Shown here in pieces: positions 20,660-23,070 of a stretch of DNA of 39,469 nucleotides (position 1 is the stretch's first letter; each line of letters begins with the position of its first letter). Source of the stretch: Acholeplasmatales bacterium (GTDB taxonomy: Bacteria > Bacillota_I > Bacilli_A > Acholeplasmatales > Acholeplasmataceae); the NCBI GenBank assembly GCA_003249785.1, contig QKIB01000012.1, positions 1 to 39,469 on the forward strand. The letters are read 5' to 3'. Below the pieces are notes generated by a model. It searched no databases. It was given only the letters and a program-made list of their open reading frames with translations, and was not told where the DNA came from. The translations under genes and the position numbers were made by a program.

Positions 20660-20810
20660 AATAAAAGCCTAGAAAGCTGTGAGAACGAAATAGTTCAGGG
20701 GGGTGTTAACTTTTCGATGTATCGGGATTCCAATTGCTTGGCTTTCACACCCACATCGTTTTAACTCCCAAAATAAGATTTTGGGTTCCACGGCTGCTCC
20801 CTAGGTTCAC
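20660..20810 (-). ncRNA. Structured small RNA candidate, family not recognised
   Basis: About 150 nt, with no ORF, between two minus-strand genes. It has its own promoter (TTGACA-17-TAAATT at 20815-20843). Its closing helix P1 pairs CCUAGGGAGC (20796-20805) with GCUUUCUAGG (20668-20677), 10 bp with two G-U pairs that would be A-C mismatches on the other strand, so the minus strand is the RNA. P1 is followed by a U-rich tail (CUUUUAUUAU). Inside are the hairpin CCCAAAAU-cuu-AUUUUGGG, a long arm (GUUAA/UUAAC and CGAUGU/ACAUCG) capped by CCAA-GCAA-UUGG with a GNRA-type loop, and a small GAAC-uauuuc-GUUC hairpin. GGGUGU could pair with ACACCC as a pseudoknot. No SRP, tmRNA, RNase P or riboswitch signature was found; 6S RNA is the first class to test. 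Confidence 0.65.
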
Positions 20811-20814
20811 CTTC

Positions 20815-20843
20815 AATTTATCACTAAATGGCATCTTTGTCAA
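20815..20843 (-). promoter_or_regulatory. Promoter of the small RNA candidate
   Basis: Minus strand TTGACA (20838-20843), 17-bp spacer, TAAATT (20815-20820). It sits immediately after the terminator of the upstream gene, and transcription would begin near 20808-20810. Confidence 0.65.
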
Positions 20844-20920: not shown

Positions 20921-22378
20921 TTAATAATAAACAGTAATTCTTACGAATTTGCCATGATGCACCAAGAGTGCCAGCAAAACTTCTCGTATTTTAGATTCAA
21001 TCATATAATCGACATTGACTGAAGGAATATCAATTCTAACCGTCAGATAATCAACATCACTCAAGTCATCGAGTTCAGTGACCGGGAATTCTTCGCTGAA
21101 TGCTTCAAGTTCTTCTTCCAGTTCAAAGTAGACAATTATGCTGATAATAATCTTGGTTTTGATTTCGAGTTCTTTCAGCAATCCTGCTAAACTCTGAGCT
21201 CTAGCGATGATATAGTTTGGACGGTGGAAAAATGTGGTTTCATAAATTTCTTTGTTTGGATCATCCTCAAGATTCATCATGATGCGTGTCTTGAATTTCG
21301 CTTCAAGGAACGCATGGAATTTATGTGCTCTTTTCTCCTGCTTTTCATGAAAATCCGCATAGAGGAAAATGGTATCGTCCTTATAGGCATATGCAGTGAT
21401 AATGAAATGAAAATAATTGGCATATATCAGGATATCATTAAAGTTGTTTTGAAATTGTTTCAGACTGGTCTTGATTTGATATTTAGAACATTTGATAAAT
21501 GTTTCATTATAGACAAGTGGTTCAAATAACGCATTGGCAAAGACTTCCATCTGAGAATCAACATCATAATAATGGTAAGCATCGTATGCCACACGTTGAT
21601 AATATTTAACGATTTCTACAACGGAGACTACAATGAATAGCACGACAAGTGATCCTGCAAAACTGTATTTGATTGCATTCGGGAACGTCGAAATCAAAAA
21701 CAGATAAATAACTGGAGGAAATAATGAAACCACCAATAATCTAAAGGTTGAAGTAAATCCCTTCTTGAACATGAAAAAGGCCATGACGAAAATAATGGTG
21801 ATGATGTAAAAGATGAAGAAATGAATCCAGTTGAACTGGTCTAGGGTATTCGCTATTTGATTGACACTCAAAATGAATAAGAATATCCCTAAAGAAAACA
21901 ATAGAACGGTTGAGAGCTGTCTTAACTGTAAATACCATTTTTTTGTATAAAGTTTTCTTGCCTGAGGTAAGTGATAGAAATTTTTCATTTCTTTCTGATA
22001 ATTGAAAAATGGCCAATAAGATCCTCGAACAGAAAAGCGGATAGGCAGAACATCCTCATCCTTCAGATGAGACTCAAGATAATTCTCAAAGGAAGACAAA
22101 GGATTCAAAACCACCAAGAGTGTTCCGATGATGACAATTGGTAAATGATAAGGGTCTTCGAGTAAAAATAGGAAAATCGTCGTCAAAATCCCATATATCA
22201 TATAGACAATCAGCTTTGGTACGCCACCAAAGACATAGACCCCAACATAGACCAAAGCAACGATTGCTGACAACATAAAAATACCTTGACCTCGTAGATT
22301 GAGTAATATCAAAGCAATCGGTAGTAAAATCAAGATTAATATGGTTAATGATCCAGCGATAACGATCCGTCTTTTCAT
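20921..22378 (-). CDS. Large membrane protein of unknown function
   Basis: A 485-aa protein with an N-terminal block of helices (about residues 8-85, three or four segments), a loop of about 70 residues, a second block of four segments (about 155-285), and a soluble C-terminal domain of about 200 residues rich in aromatic and acidic residues (FELEEELEAFSEEFPVTELD). No family is recognised. The ORF-track start at 22399 is set back to the ATG at 22378: a TATAAT at 22398-22403 covers the upstream ATG, and GGGGG lies 8 nt before the chosen one. It is transcribed alone after the rplT terminator and ends in its own terminator before the small RNA. Confidence 0.75.
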   Translation of the reverse strand: MKRRIVIAGSLTILILILLPIALILLNLRGQGIFMLSAIVALVYVGVYVFGGVPKLIVYMIYGILTTIFLFLLEDPYHLPIVIIGTLLVVLNPLSSFENYLESHLKDEDVLPIRFSVRGSYWPFFNYQKEMKNFYHLPQARKLYTKKWYLQLRQLSTVLLFSLGIFLFILSVNQIANTLDQFNWIHFFIFYIITIIFVMAFFMFKKGFTSTFRLLVVSLFPPVIYLFLISTFPNAIKYSFAGSLVVLFIVVSVVEIVKYYQRVAYDAYHYYDVDSQMEVFANALFEPLVYNETFIKCSKYQIKTSLKQFQNNFNDILIYANYFHFIITAYAYKDDTIFLYADFHEKQEKRAHKFHAFLEAKFKTRIMMNLEDDPNKEIYETTFFHRPNYIIARAQSLAGLLKELEIKTKIIISIIVYFELEEELEAFSEEFPVTELDDLSDVDYLTVRIDIPSVNVDYMIESKIREVLLALLVHHGKFVRITVYY

Positions 22379-22402
22379 AGGATAACCCCCATCTCTCATT
22401 AT

Positions 22403-22437: not shown

Positions 22438-23070
22438 TTACTTTAATTCAGATAATGCTTTAACAAGATCAGCTTTCAACATGGTTGAATAGCCTTCAAT
22501 GTTTTTTTCAGCAGCCAAAGCTTTAAGATCTTTGACAAGCATTTTTGAATAATCAACAACTTCGACATTGACTTCAACTTTTGCTGGTGTTTCTTTTTTG
22601 ACTTCAACATCAACTTTAGCAATTGTTTCTTTCTTGACTTCAGTCTTGCTTGATTTCGCAGAAACAACTTTCTTTTCAGTCTTTGGAGTTGCTGCTGTGA
22701 CCTTTGGCAAATTGCCGTTCAGCGCATTTTGAGCAAGTGTGCAATATGCGGTGAAATCTTCGGGTTGGAAAACAGCAATGTCAGCAAGCATCTTTCTGTT
22801 CACTTCAACATGAGCAAGCGATAAACCATGGATCAATGTTGAATACTTCATACCGTTTAATTTTGCAGCTGCATTGATACGTGTAATCCAAAGTTTTCTG
22901 AATTGTCTTTTCTTCTGCTTGCGATCACGATACGCATACGCGAGTGAACGCATCACTTGTTCATGTGCAGTACGATATAATGTTCTCTTGGAACCGAAAT
23001 AGCCTTTGGCTAACTTTAAAATCTTTTTACGGCGTTGTCTAGTTGTATATCCGCCTTTTACTCTTGGCAT
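22438..23070 (-). CDS. rplT: 50S ribosomal protein L20 with C-terminal Rho-N/SAP-like extension
   Basis: 210 aa, against about 118 for a normal L20. Residues 1-118 are a standard L20 ([20 protein letters not shown] at the start, then KYSTLIHGL), which binds 23S rRNA early in assembly. Residues about 120-170 are a low-complexity linker of Lys, Thr, Glu and Val. Residues 173-210 ([20 protein letters not shown], then [16 protein letters not shown]) match the helix-extended-helix pattern of Rho N-terminal/SAP motifs, which bind nucleic acid. The gene follows rpmI by 17 nt with GGAGG. L20 is the usual autoregulator of this operon through the infC leader. Confidence 0.95.

Follow-up and report, generated by a model that had tools for sequence, protein, structure and literature searches.

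Known 6S RNAs act as open-promoter mimics that bind the primary-sigma holoenzyme; a pRNA is templated from the 5′ strand of their central bubble together with the 5′ strand of helix P2, and the RNA refolds on release (PMC8876501). We analysed a stretch of 39,469 nt (the window) from an Acholeplasmatales bacterium (GCA_003249785.1, contig QKIB01000012.1), in which positions 20660-20843 of the minus strand hold an RNA locus. With very little doubt, this locus is best explained as a 6S (SsrS) RNA gene of Acholeplasmataceae, which has its own sigmaA-type promoter and specifies a rod of ~150 nt. An earlier note on this DNA had described a free-standing structured RNA of ~150 nt from an unrecognised family. 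The first half of that description holds, since the RNA has its own conserved promoter and its pairing covaries in relatives, and the free-standing small RNA gene on the minus strand is real; the second half does not, since reciprocal covariance-model search identifies the RNA as 6S. A near-universal bacterial transcription regulator is thereby extended to a wall-less, genome-reduced lineage. Literature searches yielded no paper that, judged by its title and the opening lines of its abstract, reports a 6S RNA in Acholeplasmataceae; an earlier survey, e.g., Wehner et al. 2014, may list one.

No Rfam model matched the window at its gathering score. The earlier note had proposed such a search with 6S named first, and at relaxed thresholds RF00013 (6S) does match positions 20683-20788 of the minus strand (21.7 bits, E 0.015). 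Its gathering cut-off of 46.4 bits only sets when one model reports a match and does not define the family biologically. The alignment is in register across P2 (GAACC/GUUC, Rfam 6S positions 38-42/145-149), the central bubble, the apical GGUGUGAAAGCC...GGAAUCC and the CACCC-CCUG element, and the apical GGGUGUGAAAGCC...UUGGAAUCCC aligns with the Rfam 6S consensus GGuGuGcAaGCC...GGAAgCC. The other names returned at relaxed thresholds (SpF01, tsr26, rliA and snoR118) lay on the upstream terminator region or were at chance level and were set aside. Over 61 whole genomes of relatives, RF00013 gave no match at gathering score (0/61) and weak matches in six, four of which (G026, G030, G037 and G041) fall on the orthologous RNA; the window's own copy was lost in this search to stricter filters. 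Many homologues had no 6S match in their 3-kb loci, even at relaxed thresholds. As no member attains the gathering score and so many homologues escape the relaxed search, we judge the sequence to be a divergent 6S member that lies under the Rfam reporting threshold, while the kind of RNA itself is already known. The threshold thus gives a false look of 6S absence in Acholeplasmataceae.

For a reciprocal search, we used R1, a covariance model from 48 homologues: Acholeplasmataceae contribute 46 of them, and L009 and L010 are members of a sister family. R1 matches the window at 20664-20809 with 152.6 bits, which is not evidence because the window sequence is in its training set. Over 296 genomes of the class, R1 found matches in 73 genomes outside the order. 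RF00013 matches 35 of these 73, with place and strand in agreement in 35/35, and 24 of the 35 coincident RF00013 matches exceed the gathering score. When 20 of the 38 places found by R1 alone were rescanned at relaxed thresholds, 16 proved to be RF00013 matches, of which six exceed the gathering score; the other four gave no RF00013 confirmation at those thresholds. Each target is ~150 bp in a genome of ~1-3.6 Mb, so the coincidence of the two models is not due to chance, and because they coincide, the RNA is homologous to accepted 6S RNAs. A structured RNA of an undescribed family that resembles 6S by accident is therefore highly unlikely, even though the window lacks a gathering-score match, the 61 relatives yielded no 6S at that score and the 6S score is only 21.7 bits: 35 of 35 reciprocal coincidences, 24 of them over cut-off, and 16 of 20 further R1 matches stand against it. 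R1 also showed that one weak RF00013 match (G024:C73) is not the RNA, since in the same genome R1 locates the gene at C78:3808-3959. The fast filters of a many-genome search lose true 6S RNAs, and R1 also recovers 6S RNAs that fast searches miss in neighbouring families of the class. RF00013, in turn, finds 6S RNAs in families of the class beyond the reach of R1, as expected of a family-specific model. On direct scan, several genomes of the class, e.g., L136, L139, L143, L144, L146 and L147, carry 6S over the cut-off that the many-genome RF00013 search had missed.

The comparative evidence for the structure is decisive. Thermodynamic folding alone was not above chance against shuffles (z = -1.1 on the minus and -1.6 on the plus strand), and stability was dropped as evidence. 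P2 and P3 were absent from the automatic RNAalifold consensus, so a 6S-like structure was made by hand on alignment A3 with the same sequences in view, so that the share of paired cells, 91.3% in the 48 homologues vs 30-49% with partners slid by 1-3 columns, leans towards the structure. The number of two-sided changes is hard to explain by such a bias: 155 cells carry them vs 22-48 when the partners are slid, and none of 500 shuffles attains any of the five measures. The earlier note had suggested looking for covariation in related intergenic regions, and two-sided compensatory changes occur in 25/36 pairs, five of them in P1, while one P4 pair shows five standard pair types. A rod with a closing stem, a central bubble and an apical stem is thus supported by covariation (Table 1). 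The elements of the earlier description are present on the minus strand, namely the closing helix of 10 bp, whose two G-U pairs are specific to that strand, the internal arms, one of them capped by GCAA (CCAA-GCAA-UUGG), the CGAUGU/ACAUCG pairing and the U-rich tail. The GGGUGU/ACACCC pseudoknot is possible in the window sequence but is not conserved: it is complete in only 6 of the 48 rows, and its 3′ half is part of the covarying P3. A hairpin in the 5′ bubble, present in the single-sequence minimum-energy fold, was left out of the comparative structure.

Table 1. Features of the 6S RNA locus, in positions of the window; the ends of the RNA follow from the promoter and the tail, and percentages refer to the 48 homologues.
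Feature	Positions	Strand	Remarks
Promoter: TTGACA (-35, from 20843), 17-nt spacer, TAAATT (-10, ends 20815), extended TG	20815-20843	minus	
6S RNA gene	20660-20808	minus	Start predicted at ~20808/20807, 3′ end within the U-rich stretch
P1 closing stem, 5′ strand CCUAGGGAGC	20796-20805	minus	Helix 1, paired in 97.4% of cells
P1 closing stem, 3′ strand GCUUUCUAGG	20668-20677	minus	Pairs with CCUAGGGAGC, 10 bp
P2, 5′ strand GUGGAAC	20785-20791	minus	Helix 2, 95.1% of cells paired
P2, 3′ strand GUUCUCAC, one bulged U	20679-20686	minus	GUUC common to the alternative 3′-bubble hairpin
Predicted pRNA template GUGGAACCCAAAAU (P2 5′ strand and proximal 5′ central bubble)	20778-20791	minus	Role by homology
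Central bubble, 5′ strand	20770-20784	minus	Without partner in the conserved structure; identity only 54% in the variable distal part
P3, 5′ strand GGGAGUUA	20762-20769	minus	Helix 3, two-sided change in 7/8 pairs
P3, 3′ strand UAACACCC	20701-20708	minus	Helix 3
P4, 5′ strand GAUGU	20753-20757	minus	Helix 4, two-sided change in 5/5 pairs, 96.6% of cells paired
P4, 3′ strand ACAUC	20716-20720	minus	Helix 4
Apical part GGGUGUGAAAGCC...UUGGAAUCCC, GCAA-capped CCAA/UUGG hairpin	20724-20752	minus	Helices 5 and 6
Central bubble, 3′ strand	20687-20700	minus	GAAC can pair with P2 GUUC
U-rich tail CUUUUAUU	20660-20667	minus	Sequence
Terminator-like hairpin of the upstream gene	20875-20852		Separate from the 6S RNA

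No stretch of the RNA is more conserved than the predicted template, GUGGAACCCAAA (98% mean identity over 12 columns), and a pyrimidine, as needed for a purine start, stands 0-3 nt past CCCAAA in all 48 rows. By homology with known 6S RNAs, the bubble and its flanking helices would resemble an open promoter and bind the sigmaA-RNA polymerase holoenzyme, and the polymerase would take the 5′ bubble strand as the template for a short pRNA, predicted to be 5′-AUUUUGGGUUCCAC; such pRNAs would start near 20778-20782 and have the sequence UUUGGGUUCCAC. Synthesis of the pRNA may unwind P2 and free its GUUC, which could then pair with the GAAC of the 3′ bubble strand to close a hairpin that favours release. 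When the template is blocked in folding, a 3′-bubble hairpin that uses the P2 GUUC forms in 36/48 homologues. Free folds of the homologues give the hairpin state in 21 and the P2 state in 21, so that the energies of the two are close; P2 and the hairpin are mutually exclusive because both use the same GUUC. In genus g11 (L044-L049 and L051), AUUC replaces GUUC at P2, the 3′-bubble hairpin is not predicted, and P2 also lacks the C-G pair beside the bubble to which GUUC would contribute its first G. The proposed switch is therefore not universal, and another mode of release is possible in g11. Polymerase binding, the making of a pRNA and release are all inferred from homology. Ms1 illustrates that a 6S-like rod is able to swap its partner (PMC9130861). 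A 6S-related RNA with a changed, Ms1-like partner, i.e., the RNAP core without sigma, is nevertheless very improbable here, since conservation peaks in the 5′-bubble template and the apical 6S motif has been retained, both of which fit a canonical 6S RNA.

The promoter proposed in the earlier note is present on the minus strand and conserved, with TTGAC[A/T] exactly 17 nt ahead of the -10 element in 42/48 homologues and the end of the -10 element always 4 nt ahead of the first base of the aligned row in all 48. The T-run of the tail is present in nearly all Acholeplasmataceae homologues, and the preceding gene does appear to have its own terminator, as had been claimed. Within the family, the gene ahead of the 6S gene encodes a 492-aa protein with no Pfam match, and an M42 peptidase gene usually follows downstream (in one case, the first neighbour to be recognised is rsmD); sister families have rplT, rsmD or relatives of the 492-aa protein near the 6S gene. 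That the RNA instead acts in cis, as a regulatory leader for the M42 peptidase gene, directly upstream of which it lies in most relatives, has a negligible chance given its U-rich tail ahead of the peptidase gene, its strong conserved promoter, the finding of rsmD as the nearest recognised downstream gene in some relatives and its homology to a trans-acting RNA family. In the window, the 492-aa protein (20921-22399, minus strand) has a hydrophobic N-terminal part, and it stays beside the 6S gene through the family into sister families at 35-77% identity. Beyond it, ribosomal protein L20 (210 aa, 22438-23070, minus strand) carries a C-terminal extension similar to Rho_N, at 24.7 vs the Pfam cut-off of 24.9 bits. 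A housekeeping sigma factor gene is present.

Within Acholeplasmataceae, DNA search found the element in 47/88 genomes and the R1 search raised the count to 54/88, with one high-score R1 locus per genome; the 6S element was also found in sister families. Contigs with the element that bear a name belong to Acholeplasmataceae, Acholeplasma, Peloplasma aerotolerans or otherwise unplaced Tenericutes, Mycoplasmatota or Bacillota records. None of the 29 genomes of genus g7, which measure 0.3-0.9 Mb and, judged by this size, are probably phytoplasmas, has an R1 match, and five further genomes without one are 69-90% complete. Loss of 6S RNA in the reduced g7 genomes is probable, and the family would then offer, in its smallest genomes, an example from nature of a bacterium that has lost 6S. 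We tentatively put these observations together, with slightly less than even confidence, in a picture of a compact 6S RNA in which one GUUC might belong to P2 while the RNA is bound and to a 3′-bubble hairpin of E. coli type once it is released; one genus would have lost this arrangement, and the RNA itself would be gone from the smallest genomes, probably those of phytoplasmas.

Among described systems, Ms1 RNA of Actinobacteria likewise has a 6S-like fold and binds RNAP (PMC9130861); set apart by description, it belongs to another phylum, and its partner is the RNAP core free of the primary sigma factor (PMC9130861). Compared with RF00013, the Acholeplasmataceae RNA falls below the cut-off, is shorter (~150 nt vs 160-200), has a short closing stem and carries the nearly invariant, family-specific GUGGAACCCAAA, whereas it shares the rod with closing stem, central bubble and apical arm, the elements GGGAG ... 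GGUGUG-A-GCC ... GGAA-CC ... CACCC-CCUG in register, a promoter of its own, and the places at which R1 and RF00013 find their matches. Set beside published descriptions, it differs from the B. subtilis type in that no convincing central bubble collapse helix is visible by eye (PMC8876501). With both B. subtilis 6S-1 and E. coli 6S, it has in common the bubble between P2 and the apical arm and a possible 3′-bubble hairpin (PMC8876501), and in E. coli 6S, compared here by published description and not by aligned sequence, the release hairpin likewise excludes P2 (PMC8876501).
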